A stretch of DNA of 63,394 nucleotides from Phycisphaerae bacterium (GTDB lineage: Bacteria > Planctomycetota > Phycisphaerae > Tepidisphaerales > Tepidisphaeraceae). Each line of letters starts with the position of its first letter. Position 1 is the first letter of the stretch. Under the pieces are notes generated by a model, which saw nothing but the letters and a program-made list of their open reading frames with translations, had not been told where the DNA came from and searched no databases. The position numbers and the translations under genes are program-made. Shown piece by piece: positions 2,263 through 46,637 of the stretch. The stretch is from positions 1 through 63,394 of the forward strand of contig JAICIO010000025.1 in NCBI GenBank assembly GCA_025924315.1, in the 5' to 3' direction.

Positions 2263-3948
2263 TCACGCACTCCGCCGCTTCGGCAGCGGGTACTCGACGA
2301 TCTCCATGAGCAGGTCGAGCTTGCTCGGCTTGCTCAGGAGCGGGACGAGGTTCGGCAGCGAGTAGTAGTCGCCGGCGAACTGGAACGTATCGACCGATAC
2401 ACCGGCCGCACGGCACTGCGTCTCCAGGCCGCTCGTCGCGCCCGGCGTCCGCACGATGCACACGTTCGGATCCGCCTTCAGTTCGCTGCGGTACTTCGCC
2501 AGCGCCTGCACAAACAGCGGACCCGTGTTTTCCTGTTCGTCCGTGACCAGGATGATCTGCTCGACGATCTGCGCCTTCTTGCGCATGACCTCGATGGCCG
2601 CACCACAGCTCGTACCACCGCCGGCCGTGATGCCCGTGAGAGCGCGCTCCCACGATGCCAGATCATCCCGCGCCTTGCCCTGAGCAAGGTCGAACGGGCG
2701 ATCGATCGGGTACGCCATCGTGTCGAAGGCGTACACGAACAGATCGCTCTCGCACACCGCGCTGATCAGCGCGCCGATGCGCTTGCCGAGCTCAATCGCC
2801 AGGCTCATCGAGCCCGACTTGTCGATCAGCAGCGCCGTCGGACGCTGGATGCGGCCCTTGGCCTTGACCTGCGTGTCGGCGATCTTTTCGAGCTTCGCCT
2901 TCACATCGGCCGAGACCGGCGCCGCCTTGATTGCCTCGCTCGTCTTGAGCGCGCTGACACGACGAGCCGTCTGCGCCTCTTCGAGCTTCAGCTCGATGAG
3001 GGCCTTGAGGTCGGCGTTGTCGAACGCGCCGCGCGACTTCAGCGAAGCGATGTTGTTGATCAGCTCCTGCGGGCTCATCTGTTCGATGAGCGCCATCAGG
3101 ACCGCCGGCGTCATCTGCGTTACCACCGTGCAGGCGACGCGGTACGGGATCCGGTTCTCCACGATCGCATGTGCCTGCTCCGCCGGGCTCTGCGCCTTGC
3201 TGAGCAAACGCAGAGCGAACAGCCGGCTGTCACGCGGCGGCTCTTCGTCGAAGAGAACGCGCTGCGCGCGGTCGCCCGGCTTGATGTGGTTCAGCGCGTA
3301 GAGCCGCTTGACCGCCTTACGTGCCGACAGAACCGTGCTGTCGAACCAGTCGGCATCCGCCTCACGCTCGCGGAGGTAACGCACGATTTCCGTGCGCAGC
3401 GACCGCGGCGGGTTGCGGAAGAGGCCGAACGATTCCGTCACGAGCTTCGGCTCGATGAGCGGAGCGTCGTTCGTTGCGACCGGTGCCTGGACCGGTGCGA
3501 CCGGCGCCGTCTGTGCACGCGCACCGAGGGCGCGAGCGAGACGACGTGCTGCACGCGAGAGACGACCCGGCTCGACACGAGCCGGCTCCGTCCGTGCGCG
3601 CGACGGGCGCTTCTCGCTCTTGGCGCGCACCTTCCGCGTCGTCTTCCGGCCGTGGATGAAGTCGAGCACGCGCACGACTTCGTACGGCGGAAGCTGGCGC
3701 ATCAGCGCCAGACCGACATCCCGGTGGCCTTCAAAATCGCTCAGCGCGAGCGTGACCACGAACATCTCCTTGTGGTCGCGCACGTCGCCATGATCGAAGT
3801 ACCAGGCAGCGAGGCGCACGTAGAAGCGCGGATCGCTCTTGACCATGTCCGCGTGGACCGGCCAGATTTCAGCGAGCTTCCGGTGCGGCGTCGTGAGCAG
3901 CGTGTTGAGCAGCCGCAGCCGCAGATCCTGTTCGCGCGTGATCGTCAT
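2263..3948 (-). CDS. TROVE/vWA Ro60-like RNA-binding protein (Rsr-type)
   Basis: This encodes 561 residues. The start is the ATG with AGGGAGGTG eight bases upstream; the open frame runs further upstream, but only through the structured RNAs. Residues 1-100 and about 180-345 are helical HEAT-like TROVE repeats. A basic, Ala/Arg-rich linker (about 103-165) separates them. The C-terminal von Willebrand A domain keeps a complete MIDAS: DKSGSMS at 376-382, Thr in GGGTS near 446 and Asp in VTDEQEN near 470. Ro60 proteins bind Y RNAs and misfolded RNAs in a ring of helical repeats; bacterial Rsr works with nucleases in RNA turnover. Four Y-RNA-like genes lie directly upstream. FDLAQGKARD near residue 419 looks like an in-frame repeat insertion. 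The N-terminus differs from classical Rsr, so this may be a divergent subfamily. Confidence 0.88.
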   Translation of the reverse strand: MTITREQDLRLRLLNTLLTTPHRKLAEIWPVHADMVKSDPRFYVRLAAWYFDHGDVRDHKEMFVVTLALSDFEGHRDVGLALMRQLPPYEVVRVLDFIHGRKTTRKVRAKSEKRPSRARTEPARVEPGRLSRAARRLARALGARAQTAPVAPVQAPVATNDAPLIEPKLVTESFGLFRNPPRSLRTEIVRYLREREADADWFDSTVLSARKAVKRLYALNHIKPGDRAQRVLFDEEPPRDSRLFALRLLSKAQSPAEQAHAIVENRIPYRVACTVVTQMTPAVLMALIEQMSPQELINNIASLKSRGAFDNADLKALIELKLEEAQTARRVSALKTSEAIKAAPVSADVKAKLEKIADTQVKAKGRIQRPTALLIDKSGSMSLAIELGKRIGALISAVCESDLFVYAFDTMAYPIDRPFDLAQGKARDDLASWERALTGITAGGGTSCGAAIEVMRKKAQIVEQIILVTDEQENTGPLFVQALAKYRSELKADPNVCIVRTPGATSGLETQCRAAGVSVDTFQFAGDYYSLPNLVPLLSKPSKLDLLMEIVEYPLPKRRSA

Positions 3949-4201: not shown

Positions 4202-4378
4202 AATCGTGAACGAGCGGCCGTGCGAGTCGCGCGAGCCGTTAAACTTAAGAGCGTTCTGCCATTGAACTACGCGTCCGGTTTTTTCGATCATGGACGCGAC
4301 GGGATTCGAACCCGCAACCACTCCCTTTCAAAGGTGTTTGTATGCTCATGCCGTTGGGCACGGCCGCCGTTCACTATT
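4202..4378 (-). ncRNA. Y-RNA-like ncRNA 3 (permuted tRNA module, GGACGCG acceptor)
   Basis: The terminal helix pairs GTGAACG with CGTTCAC and GCGGCCGTG (4367-4359) with CACGGCCGC (4222-4214), with one bulge. The four pairs next to the conserved loop read CGTG/CACG here but GCGC/GCGC in the sister copies, a compensatory change that supports the fold. The loop CCCAACG/GACTC, the GAGC/GCTC step and an AAAC/GTTT step follow. The core is permuted: T-arm, acceptor CGCGTCC (4298-4292), a 15-base loop, acceptor GGACGCG (4276-4270; seven perfect pairs), then the complete D-arm GTTC-AATGGCA-GAAC. CCTTTGAAAGG forms an anticodon-like hairpin in the first half. Confidence 0.82.
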
Positions 4379-4988: not shown

Positions 4989-5014
4989 TACGACCTCCCT
5001 TTTAAAAGTGTCAG

Positions 5015-5088
5015 GGTGAACGACGGGACTCGAACCCGTACGGACCAGGATCACAGCCTGGTGCTCTGCCGCTTGAGCTACGCCCACC
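5015..5088 (-). tRNA. tRNA-His (GTG)
   Basis: Cloverleaf with anticodon arm CCAGG-CTGTGAT-CCTGG and an extra G at -1 opposite C73, the histidine identity pair. CCA is not encoded. Last tRNA of the array. Confidence 0.95.
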
Positions 5089-5094
5089 ATCAAA

Positions 5095-5167
5095 AGACTG
5101 CGAGAGGAATCGAACCTCTAAAAGCGGGTGTTGCAGACCCGAGCCTTAACCATTCGGCCACGCAGCC
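5095..5167 (-). tRNA. tRNA-Cys (GCA)
   Basis: Acceptor GGCTGCG/CGCAGTC with U73, a cysteine identity base. Anticodon loop TCTGCAAC with stem CGGGT/ACCCG. Confidence 0.93.
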
Positions 5168-5171
5168 ATAG

Positions 5172-5244
5172 CACGCCGTGTAGGAATCGAACCTACCCAC
5201 TCCGGATTTGGAGGCCGGCGTCCCGCCATTGGGACCGACGGCGT
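5172..5244 (-). tRNA. tRNA-Trp (CCA)
   Basis: Acceptor ACGCCGT/ACGGCGT, G73, anticodon loop CTCCAAA. The last pair of the anticodon stem is a C-U mismatch. Confidence 0.93.
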
Positions 5245-5257
5245 ATTGGCAGAGAGG

Positions 5258-5331
5258 ATTGAGGATGGAGAATCGAGGATAGCGCCGCCCCTACTTCGCC
5301 ATCCTCAATCCTCAATCCTCCATGCTCTCCG
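5258..5331. repeat. Palindromic repeat between tRNAs (GGATTGAGGATGGAG family)
   Basis: GAGGATTGAGGATGGAG on one side is mirrored by CTCAATCCTCAATCCTCC on the other, filling the spacer between tRNA-Trp and tRNA-Tyr. Related spacers built from GGATGA/TCATCC words lie at 5503-5597, 5785-5850 and 9232-9300. Confidence 0.7.
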
Positions 5332-5337
5332 AACAAA

Positions 5338-5423
5338 TGCGTAGGGAAGGATTCGAACCTCCGTGGGCCCATAGGGCCGGCAGGGTTACAGCCTGCTACC
5401 TTCAACCGCTCGGTCACCTACGC
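5338..5423 (-). tRNA. tRNA-Tyr (GTA)
   Basis: Class II tRNA with a long variable arm (CGGCCC/GGGCC-type hairpin). Acceptor GCGTAGG/CCTACGC, A73, anticodon loop CTGTAAC. Confidence 0.95.
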
Positions 5424-5428
5424 GTCAG

Positions 5429-5502
5429 TCAGCGTGGAAGGATTTGAACCTCCGACCCCGTGCGTCCGAGGCACGTGCGCTACCAAACTGCGCTACACGC
5501 TG
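5429..5502 (-). tRNA. tRNA-Pro (CGG)
   Basis: Acceptor CAGCGTG/CACGCTG, A73, anticodon stem CGTGC/GCACG with loop CTCGGAC. Confidence 0.95.
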
Positions 5503-5597
5503 AATGAGTAAGGATGAAAGATGAATTATGAAGGATGAAGTTGAGGCCCTCTTCCTCCCTCATCCTTCATCCTTCACCCTTCTGACTTCATCCTTAT
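5503..5597. repeat. Palindromic GGATGA/TCATCC spacer repeat
   Basis: Repeated AAGGATGAA words are mirrored by TTCATCCTT words between tRNA-Pro and tRNA-Glu. A shorter copy fills 5785-5850 and another 9232-9300. Confidence 0.65.
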
Positions 5598-5601
5598 TCC
5601 A

Positions 5602-5674
5602 AGCTCCCGGTGGGAATCGAACCCGACATTCTCCGGTTGAAAGCCGGTCGTCCTAACCGTTAGATGACGGGAGC
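5602..5674 (-). tRNA. tRNA-Glu (TTC)
   Basis: Acceptor GCTCCCG/CGGGAGC, anticodon loop CTTTCAA. The first pair of the anticodon stem is an A-A or A-C type mismatch. Confidence 0.93.
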
Positions 5675-5697
5675 AAATCTATCAAACACAATCAAAA

Positions 5698-5771
5698 CGC
5701 TCTCGAAGGGAGTCGAACCCATATTTCTCTGACTGAGAATCAGATCGCCTGGACCATTAGCAGACGAGAGC
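5698..5771 (-). tRNA. tRNA-Glu (CTC)
   Basis: Acceptor GCTCTCG/CGAGAGC, G73, anticodon stem TCTGA/TCAGA with loop TTCTCAG. Confidence 0.94.
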
Positions 5772-5784
5772 AGAAGACAATTCA

Positions 5785-5850
5785 GAATTCAGAATGATGA
5801 AGGATGAAAATGCCGTCACTTCATCCTTCATAATTCATCCTTCATCCTTC
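5785..5850. repeat. Palindromic GGATGA/TCATCC spacer repeat
   Basis: AGAATGATGAAGGATGAA is mirrored by TTCATCCTTCATAATTCATC between tRNA-Glu(CTC) and tRNA-Asn. Confidence 0.65.
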
Positions 5851-5857
5851 GCTTCAG

Positions 5858-5930
5858 CACCGGCGGATGGATTTGAACCACCAATGACGCGGTTAACAGC
5901 CGCGCGCTCTACCAATTGAGCTACACCGGT
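5858..5930 (-). tRNA. tRNA-Asn (GTT)
   Basis: Acceptor ACCGGTG/CGCCGGT, G73, anticodon stem CGCGG/CCGCG with loop CTGTTAA. Confidence 0.95.
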
Positions 5931-5963
5931 ATTTATTCAGTTGCCAAAGACAGTCATCCCAAG

Positions 5964-6034
5964 CTGAGTCGCGTGGATTTGAACCATGATCTCCGAGTTC
6001 AAAGCCCGGCATTCTGCCGTTGAACTACGACTCA
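5964..6034 (-). tRNA. tRNA-Gln (TTG)
   Basis: Acceptor TGAGTCG/CGACTCA with the U1-A72 pair and G73 expected for glutamine. Anticodon loop CTTTGAA; one mismatch in the anticodon stem. Confidence 0.94.
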
Positions 6035-6037
6035 CTC

Positions 6038-6271
6038 TCAAACCCGCACCGCCTTGTGCCAGTACGGCAGGCGAACCAACCGATCCCCCACGCGCACACG
6101 TCCGCGGGCGAAAATATCGTTGCCGGCGCGCCACACGCACTCGCATTCCAGCTCGCGGTCGCGCGCGCCCTGCGACGCATCGACGTTCAGCCACGGCCGG
6201 GGGAGGAAGATCCAATCGATGCCAGGGATTTCTTCCACTCGGCATTCGGCACAGTATTTCACGTTGCACAT
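6038..6271 (-). CDS. Small cysteine-containing protein inside the tRNA array
   Basis: This encodes 77 residues from an ATG with AAAGGAGGTCGCG upstream, a near-perfect Shine-Dalgarno. The N-terminus has a CxxxxxCxxC arrangement (MCNVKYCAEC) and CEC sits in the middle, which could bind metal. Trp-rich beta-like sequence follows (ending RLVRLPYWHKAVRV). I do not recognise the family. It lies between tRNA-Gln(CTG) and tRNA-Gln(TTG) on the same strand, with only three bases to the next tRNA, so it must be translated from the tRNA precursor before or after processing. Confidence 0.75.
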   Translation of the reverse strand: MCNVKYCAECRVEEIPGIDWIFLPRPWLNVDASQGARDRELECECVWRAGNDIFARGRVRVGDRLVRLPYWHKAVRV

Positions 6272-6301
6272 CGCGACCTCCTTTCTTGGTTGATGAAAAA
6301 G

Positions 6302-6372
6302 CTCAGGGAGAAGGATTCGAACCTCCATCACTCGGGTCAGAGCCGAGCATCCTGCCGTTAAACGATCCCTGA
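6302..6372 (-). tRNA. tRNA-Gln (CTG)
   Basis: Acceptor TCAGGGA/TCCCTGA (U1-A72), G73, anticodon stem CTCGG/CCGAG with loop CTCTGAC. Confidence 0.95.
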
Positions 6373-6373
6373 T

Positions 6374-6448
6374 TAGGAGACGGTTGGATTTGAACCAACG
6401 ACCTGAGGCTTATGAGGCCCCTGCTCTGAACCCCTGAGCTACGCTCCT
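6374..6448 (-). tRNA. tRNA with CAT anticodon (Met or Ile2)
   Basis: Anticodon arm GGGGC-CTCATAA-GCCTC. The D-arm and T-arm (GTTGG/CCAAC) are regular. The 5' acceptor strand AGGAGCG faces an eight-base 3' strand CGTCTCCT, so one U must bulge. It lacks the three G-C pairs of an initiator next to the loop, so an elongator Met or lysidine-modified Ile is more likely. It starts one base from tRNA-Gln(CTG). Confidence 0.85.
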
Positions 6449-6475
6449 ATGTGTGACGAATACGTGTCATGAAAG

Positions 6476-6548
6476 AGCCGCAGGCTGGAATCGAACCAGC
6501 GACGTCCGCATTACGAGGGCGGTGCTCTGCCGTCTGAGCTACTGCGAC
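6476..6548 (-). tRNA. tRNA-Thr (CGT)
   Basis: Acceptor GTCGCAG/CTGCGGC, anticodon loop CTCGTAA; one mismatch at the base of the anticodon loop. Confidence 0.93.
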
Positions 6549-6552
6549 ATGA

Positions 6553-6612
6553 TGTAGGGTGTGCTTCAGCACACCGATGAAAGCGATGGTGTGCTGAAGC
6601 ACACCCTACGAG
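6553..6612. repeat. Palindrome of the GTAGGGTGnGCT family
   Basis: GTAGGGTGTGCTTCAGCACACC is mirrored at the other end by GGTGTGCTGAAGCACACCCTAC (each arm about 22 bases). Related to copies at 10018-10091, 14125-14198, 19289-19369, 21063-21140 and 52427-52502. Confidence 0.85.
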
Positions 6613-6618
6613 GAACAA

Positions 6619-6690
6619 TGCAGTGAGCGGGAATCGAACCCACATCCCCGGTTTGGAAGACCGGCACTCTGCCGATTGAGTTATCACTGC
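6619..6690 (-). tRNA. tRNA-Gly (TCC)
   Basis: Acceptor GCAGTGA/TCACTGC, A73, anticodon stem CCGGT/ACCGG with loop CTTCCAA. Confidence 0.95.
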
Positions 6691-6692
6691 TC

Positions 6693-6761
6693 TGTAGGGG
6701 CGACGCTCGCGTCGCCCTTTGTCGATTGGAAGAGGGCGACGCAAGCGTCGCCCCTACGAGA
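6693..6761. repeat. Palindrome of the GTAGGGGCGACGC family
   Basis: GTAGGGGCGACGCTCGCG is mirrored by CGCAAGCGTCGCCCCTAC, filling the spacer between two tRNA-Gly genes. Confidence 0.8.
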
Positions 6762-6765
6762 TAAG

Positions 6766-6841
6766 TGCGCCGAGTGGGACTCGAACCCACGGCCTCCGCG
6801 TTGGCAACGCGGCGTTCTAAGCCAGGCTGAACTACCGACGC
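6766..6841 (-). tRNA. tRNA-Gly (GCC)
   Basis: Acceptor GCGTCGG/TCGGCGC, A73, anticodon stem CCGCG/CGCGG with loop TTGCCAA. Confidence 0.95.
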
Positions 6842-6910
6842 ATGTGCTGGTGATTGGTAATTGGTGATCGACTCACCGACTCATGCATCGTTCACCAATC
6901 ACCAGCCTCA

Positions 6911-6982
6911 TGTGGACCCTTGGAATCGAACCAAGATCTCGCGCTCTTCAGGCGCGCGCTCTACCGCATAAGCCAGGTCCAC
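6911..6982 (-). tRNA. tRNA-Phe (GAA)
   Basis: Acceptor GTGGACC/GGTCCAC, A73, anticodon stem CGCGC/GCGCG with loop CTGAAGA. Confidence 0.95.
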
Positions 6983-7005
6983 GTCTTCGCGCTTTCGCGC
7001 GACAG

Positions 7006-7079
7006 CGCCGCCAGCGGGTTTCGATCCCGCGACCTCCCGCGTGACAAGCGGGCGCTCTGTCCATCTGAGCTATGGCGAC
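7006..7079 (-). tRNA. tRNA-Asp (GTC)
   Basis: Acceptor GTCGCCA/TGGCGGC, G73 (aspartate identity), anticodon stem CCCGC/GCGGG with loop TTGTCAC. The T-loop reads ATCGAAA: A at position 54 instead of the almost invariant T. Confidence 0.93.
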
Positions 7080-7113
7080 GTGACGAACTGCTAATTGTCA
7101 AAGAGCTCTTCCG

Positions 7114-7184
7114 TAGCATGGGCAACTTGCCCATGCATTTGCGGCTTTCGCCGCTTGGGCACGGGCGAGTCGCCCGTGCTACAA
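7114..7184. repeat. Palindrome of the GTAGCAnGGGCAA family
   Basis: GTAGCATGGGCAACTTGCCC and GGGCGAGTCGCCCGTGCTAC form the two ends around an inner GCGGCTTTCGCCGC hairpin. The same family sits in frame in the GH38 gene at 36880-36935. Confidence 0.75.
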
Positions 7185-7189
7185 ACCAG

Positions 7190-7279
7190 CGGAGGGTGAA
7201 GGATTCGAACCTTCGTCTCACCTTTCAGCGAGATCCGCGTTAGCACCGCGGCGCGATCGGCCAACTCTGCCAACCCTCC
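7190..7279 (-). tRNA. tRNA-Ser (GCT)
   Basis: Class II with long variable arm TCTCGC-TGAAAG-GTGAGA. Acceptor GGAGGGT/ACCCTCC, G73, anticodon stem CCGCG/CGCGG with loop GTGCTAA. Confidence 0.95.
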
Positions 7280-7322
7280 TTTCGACTCGCTGCGCTCGCT
7301 CAAGGCAGGCCCGAGTTCTTAG

Positions 7323-7408
7323 AGGAGGGTGAGGGACTTGAACCCCCAAGACCATTATGGCCACGGCCGTTTTCGAGACGGCTGCCTTACCAGTTAGGCT
7401 AACCCTCC
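7323..7408 (-). tRNA. tRNA-Ser (CGA)
   Basis: Class II with a long variable arm. Same acceptor stem as the neighbouring tRNA-Ser(GCT). Anticodon stem GCCGT/ACGGC with loop CTCGAAA. Position 73 reads T where serine tRNAs normally have G. Confidence 0.93.
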
Positions 7409-7459
7409 GTTCGTTGATCCAGGTTCTGATGAACCACTACTCATCGCTCACCTCTTCTT

Positions 7460-7723
7460 TCAGCCGTCGCACTTCTTGCTCAAATCGTCGTATCCGTGCA
7501 CCCGAGCGATCAGGTACGACTCCGGCCGTTCCTCGCGCGAAACACTTGCGACCGTCCACCCGTCTCGGATGACTCCACTGTCGACGTCCCGTAGGTTCTT
7601 CAGGACCGCACCGACAATGGCGATCTCCGATCGGATCCACGTGTTCTGAATGCACATCGTGCCATCGTTCACCGCTTTGGTGAGATCGCACATTCGATAC
7701 ATCTGCTCACGCCGTCCGCTCAT
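7460..7723 (-). CDS. Small uncharacterised protein between tRNA-Ser and EF-Tu
   Basis: This encodes 87 residues from an ATG without a strong ribosome-binding site. Upstream, GGAGGAAGTC-ATG opens a six-codon reading frame (MALELV, then stop) that ends just before this ATG, so the gene may be read by reinitiation or the annotated 5' end may hide a frameshift. The central part (IAIVGAVLKNLRDVDSGVI) is hydrophobic and well folded in appearance. Near the 3' end another frame also gives a plausible coiled-coil tail. No family is recognised. It lies on the strand of the tRNA array. Confidence 0.5.
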   Translation of the reverse strand: MSGRREQMYRMCDLTKAVNDGTMCIQNTWIRSEIAIVGAVLKNLRDVDSGVIRDGWTVASVSREERPESYLIARVHGYDDLSKKCDG

Positions 7724-7792
7724 CTTCTTGCCGACTAAACCAACTCCAGGGCCATGACTTCCTCCGGTCAAAAAAGTTTTCGTCTTTCAGAT

Positions 7793-7874
7793 TGGGAGGG
7801 CGAAGCTCCTGCTGAGCCGTCTTCTTCGCTCGCTCGAAAAGCGCGGCTCGGCTGGAGCCTCGCCCTCCCGAATC
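7793..7874. repeat. Palindrome of the GGGAGGGCGAAGCTCC family
   Basis: GGGAGGGCGAAGCTCCTGCT is mirrored by GGCTGGAGCCTCGCCCTCCC just downstream of the EF-Tu stop codon. The same family occurs at 32408-32492 and, in frame, at 42341-42416. Confidence 0.75.
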
Positions 7875-7887
7875 CTTCACATCAACC

Positions 7888-9090
7888 TCACGCCACGACT
7901 TTCGTCACGACGCCCGAGCCGATCGTGCGTCCGCCTTCACGTACTGCGAAACGCAGGCGCTCTTCGACGGCGGCGGGATTGTCGAGATCGACCTCGACCG
8001 TCACCGTGTCGCCGGGCATCACCATCTCGACCTCGCTCGGCAGCTTCGTCGTTCCGGGGACACTCGCCGTCCGGAAGAAAAACTGCGGGCGATAGCCGTT
8101 GAAGAACGGCGTGTGACGTCCGCCTTCTTCCTTGGTGAGCACGTACAGCTCGGCCAGAAACTTCTGCCGTGCCGTCAGCGTGCTCGGCGCCGCGAGCACC
8201 GTTCCGCGGGCGATTTCGTCCGCCTCCACGCCGCGAAGCAGCAGGCCGACGTTGTCGCCGGCGATCGCTTCTTCCATCGAGCGCTTGTGCTGCTCGATGT
8301 CCGTCACGACCACCGTCCGCTTGTCCTTCGAGCCGACGATCTCGACCGATTCGCCCTTGCGAATTCGGCCGCGCTCGATCAGGCCCGTCGCAACCGTGCC
8401 ACGACCGGTGATGCTGTGAACGCCTTCGACGCTCATCACCAGCGGCTGATCGACGAGTCGCTGCGGATCCGGGATGTAGGCGTCGAGTGCCGCAACGAGA
8501 CGATCGATCGCCTCGTTGGCGACTACGTCGCTCGGGTCCCTCAGCCCCGCGATAGCAGAGCCTCGGATCACCGGCACCTTCTCGCCGTCAAACCCGTACT
8601 TCGTCAGCAGCTCGCGGGTCTCGATTTCGACCAGGTCGAGCAGCTCCGGATCTTCAACAAGATCCACCTTGTTCATGAACACGACGATCTTCGGCACGCC
8701 CACCTGGCGAGCGAGCAGGATGTGCTCGCGCGTCTGCGGCATCGCACCGTCGGCCGCCGACAGAACCAGCACCGCGCCGTCCATTTGCGCCGCGCCGCTG
8801 ATCATGTTCTTGATGTAGTCCGCGTGGCCGGGGCAATCGACGTGGCTGTAGTGCCGCGTCTTCGACTCGTACTCCACGTGGCCGACGTTGATCGTCACGA
8901 CCTTCGTCGCATCGCGAACCGTTCCGCCTTTGGCAATCTCGCCGTATCCCTTCGCTTTCACGCTGCCGGGAAACAGGAAAGCCGATCGCGCGCTCAAAGC
9001 TGCGGTCAACGTCGTCTTGCCGTGGTCGATGTGACCGATCGTGCCGACGTTGAGATGAACCTTGCTGCGCACAAACACCTGTTTCGCCAT
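7888..9090 (-). CDS. tuf: Elongation factor Tu
   Basis: This encodes 400 residues, full length for EF-Tu, which delivers aminoacyl-tRNA to the ribosome. G1 GHIDHGKT (19-26), G3 DCPGH (85-89) and G4 NKVD (140-143) are intact; domains II and III follow, ending near [10 protein letters not shown] and [10 protein letters not shown]. Switch I is unusual: where most bacteria have RGITI this protein has DATKVVTI (60-67). I recall similar switch I sequences in planctomycete EF-Tu, which would make it a lineage trait, but I cannot check. AAAAAGGGGCG precedes the ATG. It lies in the tRNA array between tRNA-Leu(CAA) and tRNA-Ser(CGA), so it is probably cotranscribed with its ligands, as tufB is with tRNAs in Escherichia coli. 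Confidence 0.96.
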
Positions 9091-9148
9091 GACGCGCCCC
9101 TTTTTAAATCCGCGATCGCACCATGCGATCGAACTGTTCCTTTCTTCA

Positions 9149-9222
9149 TGCCGCAGGAAGGATTCGAACCTCCATCTGCGCGGTTCTTGAGACCGCCGCC
9201 TCTTCCGTTGGGCTACTGCGGC
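9149..9222 (-). tRNA. tRNA-Leu (CAA), class I variable loop
   Basis: Acceptor GCCGCAG/CTGCGGC, A73. Anticodon stem GCGGT/ACCGC with loop CTCAAGA. The variable region is only about six bases, unlike the long arm normal for bacterial leucine tRNAs. The D-arm reads TAGCCCAACGG and ends AGAGGC, a pattern shared by the two other leucine tRNAs of this array. Confidence 0.9.
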
Positions 9223-9231
9223 AGAGCAAAC

Positions 9232-9300
9232 TCAGAATTCAGAATGATGAAGGATGAAACGCCGCCGCTTCATAATTCAGCATTCATAATTCATCCTTCG
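9232..9300. repeat. Palindromic GGATGA/TCATCC spacer repeat
   Basis: ATGATGAAGGATGAA is mirrored by TTCATAATTCATCCTTC between tRNA-Leu(CAA) and tRNA-Leu(GAG). Confidence 0.6.
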
Positions 9301-9307
9301 ACCTCAG

Positions 9308-9382
9308 TGCTCTGAGCAGGATTCGAACCTGCATCACCGGGAATCTCAGTCCCAGGCCTCTGCCAAATTGGGCTACCAGAGC
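9308..9382 (-). tRNA. tRNA-Leu (GAG), class I variable loop
   Basis: Acceptor GCTCTGG/TCAGAGC, A73. Anticodon loop CTGAGAT with stem TGGGA/TCCCG. Short variable region and TAGCCCAA...GAGGC D-arm as in the other leucine tRNAs here. Confidence 0.9.
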
Positions 9383-9433
9383 ATTCGTCTTTTCGATCGC
9401 TGGCCTGCCATGAGCAAGCGCAAGCGAGTCGAA

Positions 9434-9506
9434 TGGACACCGGAGGGATTTGAACCCTCATCTCCTGGGTGCAAACCAGGGGTCTTGCCAGTTGGACGAC
9501 GGGCCC
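9434..9506 (-). tRNA. tRNA-Ala (TGC), bulged acceptor
   Basis: Anticodon stem CCTGG/CCAGG with loop TTTGCAC. The seven-base 5' acceptor strand GGGCCCG faces an eight-base 3' strand CGGTGTCC; pairing works with one bulged U and keeps a G-U wobble at the third pair, the alanine identity element. Without the bulge two mismatches remain. Confidence 0.85.
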
Positions 9507-9520
9507 ATGTTTTTCACTCA

Positions 9521-9595
9521 CGTCGCGAGAAGGATTCGAACCTTCAGCCTCGGCCTTCGGAGGGCCGCGCTCTGATCCGATTGAGCTATCGCAAC
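9521..9595 (-). tRNA. tRNA-Arg (CCG)
   Basis: Acceptor GTTGCGA/TCGCGAC, G73, anticodon stem CGGCC/GGCCG with loop CTCCGAA. Confidence 0.94.
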
Positions 9596-9679
9596 ATTCG
9601 CGTGTTGCGTGTGGCTTGTTGCACGTTGGATTAGCAGTTCCAACACGCCGCGCGCCACATGCGACACGCAACCATCCAG

Positions 9680-9753
9680 TGGTCCAGGCAGGATTCGAAC
9701 CTGCACTGTGCCGCTTCTGAGGCGGCTGCCTCTGCCGATTGGGCTACTGAACC
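9680..9753 (-). tRNA. tRNA-Leu (CAG), class I variable loop
   Basis: Acceptor GGTTCAG/CTGGACC, A73. Anticodon stem GCCGC/GCGGC with loop CTCAGAA. The variable region is five bases (ACAGT). Third leucine tRNA of the array without a long variable arm. Confidence 0.92.
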
Positions 9754-9776
9754 GTTTGTCCTCCATCGGAAGCCAC

Positions 9777-9848
9777 TGCACCGAGCGAGACTTGAACTCG
9801 CATCTCGCCGATTAAAAGTCGGGGGCTCTGCCATTGAGCTATCGGTGC
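9777..9848 (-). tRNA. tRNA-Lys (TTT)
   Basis: Acceptor GCACCGA/TCGGTGC, A73, anticodon loop CTTTTAA; one mismatch in the anticodon stem. Confidence 0.94.
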
Positions 9849-9869
9849 TTCGGCGCGAATTCGCGCCCA

Positions 9870-9944
9870 TGCACCGGGAGGGATTCGAACCCCCAACCCG
9901 CTCTTTAGAAGAGAGCCGCTCTCGTCCGATTGAGCTACCGGTGC
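9870..9944 (-). tRNA. tRNA-Arg (TCT)
   Basis: Acceptor GCACCGG/CCGGTGC, A73, anticodon stem GCTCT/AGAGC with loop CTTCTAA. Confidence 0.95.
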
Positions 9945-10017
9945 GCGTCATGATTTGGCCTCGCACCGTTTTCTTCGCTCACACATCGCACACACTCGCT
10001 TTCACCGATTGGGTCTT

Positions 10018-10091
10018 CGTAGGGTGCGCTTCAGCGCACCAGTTATTCCGCCCCTGGATCAATAACCGGTGCGCTGAAGCGCACCCTACGA
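10018..10091. repeat. Palindrome of the GTAGGGTGCGCTTCAGCGC family
   Basis: GTAGGGTGCGCTTCAGCGCA is mirrored by TGCGCTGAAGCGCACCCTAC, with inner AGTTATT/AATAACC arms. Nearly identical to 14125-14198 and 52427-52502. Confidence 0.88.
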
Positions 10092-10098
10092 AACCTCA

Positions 10099-10278
10099 TT
10101 AATCCGCGTTTCCACTTGTTCGTTCCTTCTCGTTTCGCTCGCGCAAATACTCGAGCAGCTGCTTGAAGTACTCCGGCTCGTCATCAGGCTTCTGATCGAA
10201 CGCCGGTTGCGGAGGGTCATCCTCCGATCGGGCCGCGTACTCCTGCGGCTCCTTGAATAGGGATATCAGTCGATTCAT
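10099..10278 (-). CDS. Small charged protein inside the tRNA array
   Basis: This encodes 59 residues, beginning MNRLISLFKEPQEYAA, with GAGGAAGCG before the ATG. The protein is strongly charged, Pro- and Glu-rich in the middle, and ends in a likely amphipathic helix (EYFKQLLEYLRERNEKER). No family is recognised. It lies between tRNA-Lys(CTT) and the palindrome at 10018, on the strand of the tRNAs. Confidence 0.65.
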   Translation of the reverse strand: MNRLISLFKEPQEYAARSEDDPPQPAFDQKPDDEPEYFKQLLEYLRERNEKERTSGNAD

Positions 10279-10310
10279 CGCTTCCTCACTCTCACTTCCC
10301 AGAACCTAAG

Positions 10311-10382
10311 TGCACCCGGCAGGACTTGAACCTGCACGATGCCGCTTAAGAGGCGGCGGCTCTGCCATTGAGCTACGAGTGC
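10311..10382 (-). tRNA. tRNA-Lys (CTT)
   Basis: Acceptor GCACTCG/CGGGTGC, A73, anticodon stem GCCGC/GCGGC with loop CTCTTAA. Confidence 0.95.
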
Positions 10383-10424
10383 GTTCATTGCAACTCCATT
10401 AAATACAACCAGTTCACACGTCAG

Positions 10425-10496
10425 CGCACCAGGGAGGAATCGAACCTCCATCTCCGGTTTCGTAGACCGGAGCTCTATCCGTTGAGCTACCAGTGC
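10425..10496 (-). tRNA. tRNA-Arg (ACG)
   Basis: Acceptor GCACTGG/CTGGTGC, G73, anticodon stem CCGGT/ACCGG with loop CTACGAA. A34 is expected to be edited to inosine by TadA. Confidence 0.95.
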
Positions 10497-10551
10497 GTAG
10501 TTTGTCCGTGCTCGATCGCCCGCGCGTTTGCGAAAGCGAATCGAGCTGTCA

Positions 10552-10623
10552 TGCGCAGTGAAGGGTTCGAGCCTTCGACCTCTCCGTTATCAACGGAGTG
10601 CTCTGCCGCTGAGCTAACCGCGC
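10552..10623 (-). tRNA. tRNA-Ile (GAT)
   Basis: Acceptor GCGCGGT/ACTGCGC, A73, anticodon stem CTCCG/CGGAG with loop TTGATAA. The T-loop reads CTCGAAC, with C instead of T at position 54. Confidence 0.93.
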
Positions 10624-10639
10624 GTATTTTTCCGACCAG

Positions 10640-10715
10640 TTCGCCTGGCTGGAATTGAACCAGCAACCCCCGGTTTGTAAGACCGGTGCTCTGAGCCAAA
10701 TTGAGCTACAGGCGC
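10640..10715 (-). tRNA. tRNA-Val (TAC)
   Basis: Acceptor GCGCCTG/CAGGCGA, so the terminal 1-72 pair would be G-A. Anticodon stem CCGGT/ACCGG with loop CTTACAA. First tRNA of the array in the direction of transcription. Confidence 0.92.
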
Positions 10716-11090
10716 AACTTACGTTCGATCCGGCTAAGGCCGAAACGAAACGATCAAGCAAGCGAATCGAACGAAACTCGTCCAATTGCTTCCCGGTTGA
10801 ATGATTGAAAAAACTGAATCTTTTCGACCGGGAAGATCTCCCGGCCGCGAGGCAGGGAGGGTTATCTGAGCGAGCGCGGATCAATCACCGCGGCGACTGG
10901 ATATGTCATCCAGCCACTTTCGCATCGGTGATTCAATTGTTTCGTACCTAGCTGCATAAATTCCTCAAACACTACTTCGGCAAAACGCCGAAGGGACGTG
11001 AAGTATTCCCTTCGATTCGGAAAAAAGCAACAGAAAAATTTAGAACGAGTTCGTGAAAAATGAATACAAGTCGCGCAATTTGATGGGAAC
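10716..11090 (-). promoter_or_regulatory. Structured leader of the tRNA array
   Basis: About 375 bases without a gene upstream of the first tRNA. In transcription order it holds two overlapping hairpins that cannot form together (CGAAGGGA/TCCCTTCG, 11014-10989; CTTCGGC/GCCGAAG, 10993-10975), a closed two-stem element (AATCACCG/CGGTGATT, 10933-10883, enclosing CTGGAT/ATCCAG), and a CCGGGA/TCCCGG hairpin near 10835-10855 followed after about 16 bases by a T-run. This looks like an attenuation or antitermination leader. An exact promoter is not clear. Confidence 0.5.
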
Positions 11091-11639: not shown

Positions 11640-12158
11640 ATGTCCGTTGAGCCGGAAGATTCCGAGCACGTCGCCTGCCCCGCCTGCGGCGAAGCGGTGC
11701 GGATTGATCCCATCGCGATCTCACTTCGCTGCGCCCATTGCGGCCATGACTTTTTCATCGAATCGGCGGATGAACAAGAGCACGCCGAATCGCACGCACA
11801 ACCGACGAATGAAGCCGAGCTCGACGCGATGCGCATTCGTCAGCGCATGACGATCGTTCGCTCGGCGTATCGCAGCCGCTCGTACGCGATCATCGCGATG
11901 ACGATTTGCGCGGTGCTCGTCATTCAATCGATTCTCTCCGCGATCGCGCGATTCCGCGCGCACTCGCTTCCGCTGGCATTCCTCTATCTCCTCTTCGCGC
12001 TCATCGGAATCACCGGAACGCTTTATTTCTTTCGCAAGGCGATAGCGCTTCATCGCGAGGCGCGACAATCGTTGCTCGATCAGCCAACCGCTCCGCCAGA
12101 CTTTTCGGATCTCGGCGACGGGAGCGGGCGCGTCCGCAATCTCGAAAACATTCGTTAA
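11640..12158 (+). CDS. Zinc-ribbon protein with two membrane helices
   Basis: This encodes 172 residues. Near the N-terminus CPACG and CAHCG form a four-cysteine zinc ribbon (about residues 13-37). A charged linker leads to two membrane helices (about 90-110, YAIIAMTICAVLVIQSIL, and 118-138, PLAFLYLLFALIGITGTLYF). The function is unknown; such architecture is common in planctomycete membrane proteins. The TAA overlaps an ATG of the next frame (TAATG), suggesting coupling with the following gene. Confidence 0.75.
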   Translation: MSVEPEDSEHVACPACGEAVRIDPIAISLRCAHCGHDFFIESADEQEHAESHAQPTNEAELDAMRIRQRMTIVRSAYRSRSYAIIAMTICAVLVIQSILSAIARFRAHSLPLAFLYLLFALIGITGTLYFFRKAIALHREARQSLLDQPTAPPDFSDLGDGSGRVRNLENIR

Positions 12159-12199
12159 TGGGCGCGTCGGTCGGTATCATTCCCACACGACTCACAGAA

Positions 12200-12703
12200 A
12201 TGGGGATTCGGGTGGAACTCAACGGCAAATCAATCGCGATCGTGATCTTCGTCCTCGTCGGCCTCGGCGGATTGCTCGGGGTCGCGTACTACATGCGCAA
12301 CGGCATGACCGACAGCGATTGCCAGGACAACATGATTCAGCTCATGAACCGCGTAAACATGTACCGCCACATGAACGATCAGTTTCCGCCGAGCTGGATG
12401 ATGATCGAGTACATCGGCAACCATAAACTGTCGGAATTCCCCTGCCCCGGCGCCGTCAAGAACGGGGGCGGGCCGCACAGCGCCTCGTCCGACTACATCT
12501 ACATTCCATGGACGAAAGGCGAAGCCGGCGAGGATTGGGACGGCAAGCTTCCGGTTTTCTACGACGCCAGCTATGCGAACCACGGCGGGCGCGGGATCAA
12601 CATCAAATTCTCGGATAATTCGGTGATGTTCGACGAAGGCGGAAAGTGGCTCAAAAACTTCGCGGCTTCGCATCCGAATGCGAAAATCCCGATGCCGCAG
12701 TGA
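12200..12703 (+). CDS. Prepilin-like single-pass membrane protein
   Basis: This encodes 167 residues from the ATG opening [10 protein letters not shown]. An in-frame ATG at 12158 that overlaps the previous stop is an alternative. One membrane helix ([20 protein letters not shown]) is followed by a periplasmic domain. It ends with a segment that resembles the C-terminal part of DUF1559 prepilins: [18 protein letters not shown] stands where those have the FADGHV strand. There is no classical GFTLVEL cleavage site, so processing by prepilin peptidase is doubtful. Confidence 0.65.
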
Positions 12704-46212: not shown

Positions 46213-46283
46213 GAAGTAGCACGGGTTTTCAACCCGTGCATTCCGTTCGAAAGAAATGCACGGGCTGAAAACCCGTGCTACTT
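46213..46283. repeat. GTAGCACGGGTTTTCAACCCG palindrome
   Basis: GTAGCACGGGTTTTCAACCC is mirrored by GGGCTGAAAACCCGTGCTAC. A half copy lies at 50617-50641. The next gene starts three bases after the palindrome. Confidence 0.88.
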
Positions 46284-46637
46284 ATGACCGCCCTTCGCTA
46301 CGTCATTCTCCACCACGAAGGCATCGCCGAGCCGCATTACGATTTGATGTTTGAAACCGCGCCTGGATCCGACCTCGCGACGTGGCGCGCGAACGAATGG
46401 CCGATTCACCACGGCAGCGCGCTCACACGACTCGCGGATCACCGTCGCGCCTATCTCGACTACGAAGGCCCCGTGTCCGGCGATCGCGGAACGGTCAAGC
46501 GCATCAGTGCCGGGACGTATGACCTAGGGCAGAATCGTGATGGACTCTTTCAGGGCATCTGGCGCGAAGCCGAGGAATTCGCCTTGGTGAGGGATGGCCC
46601 TGAGCACTGGAACTGCTTCGTCGCGCGAAACGGCTAA
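46284..46637 (+). CDS. LigD 3'-phosphoesterase-domain-like protein
   Basis: This encodes 117 residues. RYVILHHEGIAEPHYDLMFE matches the HxxHYDLR-like core of the DNA ligase D phosphoesterase (PE) domain, with His and Asp as metal ligands; YLDYEGPVSGDRGTVKRI and the terminal GPEHWNCFVAR also fit. In LigD this domain repairs 3' ends; the stand-alone form in planctomycetes has unproven function. The ATG directly follows the upstream palindrome. Confidence 0.82.
   Translation: MTALRYVILHHEGIAEPHYDLMFETAPGSDLATWRANEWPIHHGSALTRLADHRRAYLDYEGPVSGDRGTVKRISAGTYDLGQNRDGLFQGIWREAEEFALVRDGPEHWNCFVARNG

Follow-up and report, generated by a model that had tools for sequence, protein, structure and literature searches.

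A spare tRNA array with armless leucine tRNAs behind a putative attenuator-type leader in a Phycisphaerae bacterium

The DNA analysed here (the window) is a stretch of 63,394 nt from a Phycisphaerae bacterium (GenBank assembly GCA_025924315.1, contig JAICIO010000025.1, positions 1-63,394, forward strand), and coordinates are given on the window unless another locus is named. The genome, labelled G000, comprises 6.57 Mb on 262 contigs, with 4.6% contamination. The window harbours an array of 29 tRNA genes that covers all 20 amino acids in 5.7 kb of the minus strand (5014-10715). Its first gene, identified by both ARAGORN and cmscan, codes for tRNA-Val(TAC) (10639-10715, minus strand) and is preceded by a short open reading frame (ORF) and a segment with alternative hairpins. 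Outside the array, at least 47 tRNA genes are dispersed in the genome and form a near-complete set. The array, being a tight cluster of many tRNA genes supernumerary to that set, has the attributes of an L-array.

Three tRNA-Leu genes of the array, all on the minus strand, were identified by ARAGORN, Rfam cmscan and alignment, namely tRNA-Leu(CAA) (9149-9222, 74 nt, 52.7 bits), tRNA-Leu(GAG) (9308-9382, 75 nt, 50.1 bits) and tRNA-Leu(CAG) (9680-9753, 74 nt, 59.6 bits). All have variable regions of 5-6 nt and are devoid of the long variable arm that characterizes class II tRNAs. They harbour the features expected of leucine tRNAs, i.e. a Leu anticodon, A73, A14, G18-G19 and standard helices. 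Their D-arms read TAGCCCAA..GAGGC in all three cases; the D stem is 3 bp long (GCC/GGC), positions 13 and 22 are mismatched, and A14 and A15 are both present. Class II tRNA-Leu share A73, A14, the 3-bp D stem with its mismatch and the Leu anticodons; in contrast with the array genes, they have the long arm, and their D stem is GCG/CGC. Within the array, arm loss is specific to leucine, as tRNA-Ser(GCT) (7190-7279), tRNA-Ser(CGA) (7323-7408) and tRNA-Tyr(GTA) (5338-5423) retain long arms. The initial annotation had proposed both the class I form and its restriction to leucine; our analyses bear this out, with the two programs agreeing on the positions and on lengths of 74-75 nt. Its statement that all tRNA-Leu are armless holds for the array and not for the whole genome, since five class II tRNA-Leu genes (CAA, CAG, GAG, TAA and TAG) are found on other contigs, along with a single leucyl-tRNA synthetase (LeuRS). 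Thus, the array is no replacement for the housekeeping tRNA-Leu. Class II genes elsewhere were one half of what the annotation had named as evidence against itself, the other half being a failure of the armless three to accept leucine.

That this form has not arisen by chance is shown by 16 aligned class I tRNA-Leu sequences, drawn from three phyla: 98% of helix cells are paired, compensatory changes are present at 15 of the 20 pairs, and T8, G10-C11-C12-C13-A14-A15, A22-G23-G24 and A73 are invariant. Class I tRNA-Leu with the D-arm of the array type were also found in actinobacterial and cyanobacterial arrays (Nonomuraea, Mycobacterium, Bifidobacterium and Kovacikia plasmids). Closer to the window, genomes G021 (locus L206) and G003 (locus L207) harbour arrays with the same gene order, starting with Val-Ile-Arg-Lys and ending with Trp-Cys-His, so that the three arrays represent three genera. 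As L206 and L207 share both this order and a trio of class I tRNA-Leu, the class I state is an ancient, conserved condition rather than a defect of recent date. The mean identity of the array tRNAs is 84% to their orthologues in G021 and 79% to those in G003, compared with 70% to the dispersed copies of their own genome. Similar tRNAs in plasmid and phage arrays might point to horizontal spread, yet the orthologous arrays were found confined to one bacterial family.

The ORF upstream of the first tRNA (10862-10957, minus strand) codes for a putative leader peptide of 31 codons, MQLGTKQLNHRCESGWMTYPVAAVIDPRSLR, which contains 19 of the 20 amino acids, the missing one being F. A Shine-Dalgarno-like GAGGA is found 6 nt ahead of its ATG, and an in-frame GTG at 10972 would extend the peptide by F and E residues and complete the set of 20. 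The leaders of the orthologous arrays are MTQRFKQYSSERHAAWLSMPVGIDNTGLCLRS in G021, with 20 of 20 amino acids in 32 codons, and MQLRWYHNPLSSPVTIKNVAGAFDMRLHC in G003, with 19 of 20 in 29 codons. The three are dissimilar in sequence, and the completeness of the amino-acid set is their common trait. Among the 283 ORFs of 27-34 codons in the three array loci, two reach 19 amino acids, and both are leaders. With ATG or GTG accepted as start codons, comparison with dinucleotide shuffles yielded p=5e-4 for the window locus and Fisher p=1.9e-6 for the three loci.

The leader stop codon marks the beginning of an attenuator-like segment (10789-10861, minus strand), whose strands can form the mutually exclusive hairpins 1:2, 2:3 and 3:4, with energies of -13.4, -13.5 and -17.5 kcal/mol, respectively. 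The block directly 3' of the stop codon is conserved in the window, G021 and G003, and each of them has these mutually exclusive pairings after the leader, with similar energies. Based on this layout, a ribosome sitting at the leader stop would cover strand 1, which is the geometry of an attenuator.

To find further class I tRNA-Leu, we used a covariance model that scores them above 73 bits and ordinary tRNAs at about 70 bits or less. It detected such genes in 25 of the 150 Phycisphaerae genomes and in 44 of the 199 Planctomycetota genomes, and every one of the 49 loci retrieved carries class I tRNA-Leu. Many of these loci are small operons whose leader peptide is rich in precisely the amino acids that the tRNAs of the operon serve. 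Leaders of Leu and Tyr operons are MNRNALYYYLPLLPGGGFA (four Leu and Tyr), MNRNALHFDLQNYYLLNLPGGGTA (three Leu and Tyr), MKKFAVYYFLLTLLRGGTV (two Leu and Tyr) and MKNYLLLNYLYLYLYILRKGRRGDGLS (five Leu and two Tyr). The leader MIVFASNITLCLTQPGTGLCGLLCCPR precedes Cys and three Leu, MMKISSYSLLSGLCEGGCGDMG precedes Leu and Ser, and MKHLLSQLSSLCYLRTYSSGVNIG belongs to an operon that begins with Leu, Cys, Leu and Ser. A longer operon (Thr, Arg, Arg, Ser, His, Asp, Tyr, Cys, Ser and four Leu) has the leader MKTLACQLHSRSCMRTAYRSRCTRCCRHLSVRSDRALYSG, and MFYAFAQFDPNAAQGGNQQNELTG precedes Gly, Ala, Gln, Gln, tuf and Asn in an operon located via its EF-Tu gene. EF-Tu was not retained as a marker of such operons, its hits being mostly housekeeping tuf genes.

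The match between leaders and cargo was assessed automatically by selecting, in the 450 nt upstream of each operon, the 12- to 60-codon ORF that was most enriched for the amino acids of the ARAGORN-called tRNAs, and by comparing it with shuffled sequence. Enrichment was found over 18 multi-tRNA operons (Fisher p=8e-9), whereas solitary tRNA-Leu(UAA) genes, used as controls (n=15), showed none in the same test (p=0.40). When the tRNA sets were swapped among 14 operons, the leaders matched their own sets with p=5e-5, which is the smallest value attainable with 20,000 permutations. Thus, as in attenuators, a short upstream ORF is enriched for codons relevant to the genes that it may control. By a strict automated rule, a G+C hairpin followed by a U-run lies between the leader and the first tRNA in six small operons (L276, L305, L313, L314, L186 and L209) and in none of the 15 solitary controls. 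A seventh candidate, L274, was not counted, as its hairpin sits upstream of the leader. Hairpins with longer loops and a U-run were recognized by eye in L284, L285, L283 and L271.

RNAs resembling tRNA-Tyr, undetected by ARAGORN and by cmscan at the gathering score, are present in L285 and L283 (just 3' of the last tRNA-Leu), L271, L276 and L278, and possibly in L303. They have a GUA anticodon loop, a 7-bp acceptor, A73 and a T arm. Base pairing between the 5' strand of the D arm and the variable region (CCTCAC:GTGAGG, CCCCAC:GTGGGG or CCCCGC:GCGGGG) predicts a pseudoknot with a variable-arm helix. Small operons combine armless tRNA-Leu with tRNA-Tyr of rearranged variable region.

Recognition by seryl-tRNA synthetase (SerRS) depends on the long arm. 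Discrimination against SerRS, which the initial annotation expected to require adaptation, should therefore be easier for armless tRNA-Leu. Solitary class I tRNA-Leu(UAA) genes occur in many Phycisphaerae (loci L261, L263, L264, L266-L270, L272, L273, L275, L277, L280-L282, L287 and L289). In five genomes that are 97-99% complete (G112, G092, G137, G152 and G088), the sole Leu(UAA) found is such a solitary class I gene, and no leader precedes it. In the same genomes, a model of class II tRNA-Leu recovers CAA, CAG, GAG and TAG; those of its leftover long-armed matches that were checked, in G112, G092, G137 and G152, are other tRNAs. As UUA requires a UAA anticodon, the class I Leu(UAA) of these five genomes should be leucine-charged. 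Judging from their gene content, LeuRS must charge an armless tRNA-Leu in the five Phycisphaerae, unless the code differs. Regarding the adapted LeuRS that had been anticipated, the five genomes indirectly support a LeuRS that accepts armless tRNA-Leu. Nevertheless, special adaptation need not be assumed, as A73 and A14 are kept, and E. coli LeuRS relies on A73 and core tertiary contacts, with tRNA-Leu variants devoid of the variable arm staying active (PMC9976931).

Several protein and RNA genes are linked to the array. A second EF-Tu of 400 residues is encoded within it (7888-9090, minus strand), with 68% identity to the housekeeping EF-Tu on contig C10 and without a counterpart in the L206 and L207 arrays. 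Extra EF-Tu genes are present in three tRNA operons; we do not claim a common origin for these copies, because they form long branches that the tree does not place. Another second EF-Tu gene, in locus L179 of genome G019 (8477-9769), has no tRNA genes near it. Next to the window array, a Y-RNA-like RNA of the YrlA type (4237-4333, minus strand; 38.9 bits, under the family gathering score) separates the tRNAs from a gene for a Ro60/Rsr-like protein (2263-3948, minus strand). A similar RNA occupies the equivalent position in L206 and L207, and YrlA-like matches adjoin the Ro60-like gene in four genomes, with E values of 1e-4 to 1e-7 that are all under the gathering score. The predicted structure of the Ro60-like protein is of low confidence (pLDDT 53), yet its top five Foldseek matches are all Ro60, Rsr or TROVE proteins (E 1.8e-7 to 1.6e-5). 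As modelled, the product is Ro60/Rsr-like, with TROVE-like helical repeats and a vWA fold. In a class-level search, its close relatives belonged to four genera of one family only.

The downstream gene set also includes two proteins of unknown function (929-1645 and 91-927, both on the minus strand). By eye, an ORF similar to the former is found at the same place in L206, and ORFs similar to the latter in L206 and L207. In L206, a ThiF/E1-like gene (11808-12482 region) comes after these two protein families. Two small tRNA operons from two species of one genus (L181, 9265-10353; L209/L202) encode a protein of the RNA_ligase family (PF09414) next to tRNAs for Ala/Gly/Gln/Asn or Arg/Gly/Ala.

Among the remaining tRNA predictions, no tRNA-His was found outside the array in G000. 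G021 encodes one outside its own array, so the missing gene was probably lost in an assembly gap, and we discarded the idea of the array as sole source of tRNA-His. An ARAGORN tRNA-Glu at 46213-46308 was also rejected; it has no cmscan support and resembles an inverted-repeat element. A dispersed tRNA of the same genome (L046, G000:C46:712-784) has an 8-nt anticodon loop (CTGT), is called Gln or Thr by ARAGORN and might be a frameshift-type tRNA. Spare arrays of two other loci (L225, 6253-6327; L311, 5271) contain tRNAs with a CTA anticodon, named Pyl by ARAGORN, which are possible amber suppressors.

We propose that the array is probably a spare-tRNA operon under leader attenuation of the trp/leu type, which would free altered tRNAs when aminoacyl-tRNAs vanish, most plausibly after tRNA cleavage. 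Leader composition, alternative hairpins, the spare set and the gene company can be read from the sequence. From these, we infer the sensing of absent aminoacyl-tRNA, induction, the direction of the switch (which hairpins mean ON or OFF), tRNA loss as a trigger and escape from tRNA-cutting enzymes. Translation of the leader would test the aminoacyl-tRNA pool. With all tRNAs available, the ribosome would get to the stop codon and the RNA would adopt a shut-off fold; if at least one tRNA were missing, the ribosome would stall, the hairpins would re-pair, and transcription or processing would continue into the array. Candidates for the output step of the window switch are Rho-dependent termination, processing or stability. 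The released spare tRNAs, together with EF-Tu, could then restart translation, and Ro60 and the Y RNA could handle damaged RNA. The small operons of relatives would follow the same logic for only a few amino acids, and it is the codons for these that abound in their leaders. Seen in this way, the set of 29 tRNAs behind a test peptide looks like an emergency kit for a cell whose own tRNAs have been destroyed or depleted.

Altered tRNA bodies, i.e. armless Leu and, in several Leu operons, rearranged Tyr, would escape tRNA-specific nucleases such as variable-arm cutters. Septu and retron-Eco7 cut the variable loop of tRNA-Tyr; phage T5 encodes a tRNA-Tyr that withstands retron-Eco7 because this loop is different (PMC13096335). 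In its broadest form, our proposal describes a phylum-wide response, in which leaders would test the aminoacyl-tRNAs encoded by their operons, nearly all 20 for the largest, and altered tRNAs (armless Leu, pseudoknotted Tyr) would evade toxins or defence nucleases, with armless Leu(UAA) in a housekeeping role in part of the class. We give this extended version an even chance.

Several points weigh against leader attenuation triggered by tRNA damage. No U-run was found after any hairpin of the window copy, including 3:4. The array-leader test accepted GTG starts, and thereby the 20-amino-acid form of the window leader that begins at 10972. Of the 18 multi-tRNA operons, ten do not reach significance on their own (L285, L283, L271, L276, L278, L274, L303, L288, L181 and L209), in part because ARAGORN missed their tRNA-Tyr. 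Some operons are related, e.g. L285 and L283, making the tests partly dependent, and the leaders were first spotted by eye, before the automated test. Lastly, the support that our analyses provide for a tRNA-damage trigger and for nuclease escape is indirect.

Attenuation might be real and yet sense amino-acid starvation or general antibiotic stalling, with the array tuning translation in slow growth, an alternative that we hold to be possible, though on the unlikely side. Classic attenuators do sense uncharged tRNA, and the trn operon of Anabaena reacts to antibiotics that target translation (PMC10272220). Nevertheless, the cargo here consists of tRNAs and not of biosynthesis enzymes. As starvation would not be relieved by a larger supply of uncharged tRNA, tRNA loss is the more likely trigger. 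The damage-response company of the operons, namely the Ro60-like protein, YrlA and, in two small operons, an RNA ligase, also suits RNA damage, as do the altered tRNA bodies.

An ordinary, horizontally spread L-array that supplies extra tRNAs and is preceded by coincidental ORFs appears improbable. L-arrays are known from phages, plasmids and chromosomes, and the shared D-arm of the actinobacterial and cyanobacterial class I tRNA-Leu would fit such an origin, which is quite possible in itself. It leaves the leader unexplained, however. Coincidence is difficult to reconcile with leader composition that tracks operon content and is lacking in solitary genes, or with a layout of leader, alternative hairpins, tRNAs, Y RNA and Ro60 common to three arrays in three genera.

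It is more doubtful still that the class I tRNA-Leu are not leucine-charged and serve as nuclease decoys or as substrates of Ro60 and the Y RNA. YrlA is a tRNA mimic and a proposed competitor for an anticodon nuclease (PMC7790460), and some array tRNAs have low cmscan scores (Trp 29.3 bits, Glu 42.1 bits). However, A73, A14 and a D arm of the Leu type have been kept in different phyla, the covariation is strong, the class I Leu(UAA) must read UUA in the five related genomes, and the armless E. coli variants are active with LeuRS. That the array contig stems from another organism through faulty binning or assembly, as the 262 contigs, the contamination and the missing housekeeping tRNA-His might hint, is very improbable, given that ordinary bacterial chromosomal genes flank the array and that the family includes two further, independent genomes with orthologous arrays.

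Spare, stress-induced tRNA arrays and leader attenuation of amino-acid operons are already known. In the open-licence literature, we found no report of tRNA operons under the control of leader peptides or attenuation, and none of bacterial class I tRNA-Leu; the novelty of both is thus provisional. If confirmed, the rule that bacterial tRNA-Leu are always long-armed would be overturned, and natural armless tRNA-Leu would become available for studies of identity and translation. Like the tRNA-Tyr of phage T5, the altered tRNAs are supplementary and have a modified variable region; unlike it, they belong to a chromosomal, apparently leader-regulated set, and their resistance is predicted. They would lend themselves directly to tests of how tRNA-based defence and counter-defence operate. 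Ro60 and Y RNA are part of tRNA-damage operons in Salmonella (PMC7790460). As in rsr-yrlBA-rtcBA of Salmonella and the Rsr/Y RNA system of Deinococcus, a Ro60-like protein adjoins a YrlA-type RNA in the window, a pairing that has been linked to tRNA damage (PMC7790460). In contrast with rsr-yrlBA-rtcBA, the window system is associated with a tRNA array and a leader, RtcB and RtcA were not seen adjoining it, and two small operons use a PF09414 ligase.

With the trp, his and leu attenuators, the operons described here share a codon-rich short ORF and, in the three large arrays, alternative hairpins; several small operons have a putative intrinsic terminator before the first gene. They differ from them in that tRNAs themselves are controlled, that the leaders of the large arrays span nearly all amino acids and that the window copy has no U-run. 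As the leader code predicts the tRNAs of an operon, the proposal is directly testable. A close counterpart of the array is the trn operon of Anabaena sp. PCC 7120, whose spare tRNAs are controlled by the repressor TrcR, normally silent and expressed when translation is under stress (PMC10272220). Both consist of supernumerary tRNAs in a single operon, some 26 of them in Anabaena, beside a housekeeping set that is complete there. Unlike the trn operon with its protein repressor, the window array has a putative leader peptide with 19 of the 20 amino acids and alternative hairpins upstream, and it is associated with genes for EF-Tu, a Y RNA and a Ro60-like protein. If our proposal is correct, the question of how such arrays are controlled has an answer for planctomycetes: translation itself would do so one codon at a time, with the peptide serving as a checklist of aminoacyl-tRNAs.
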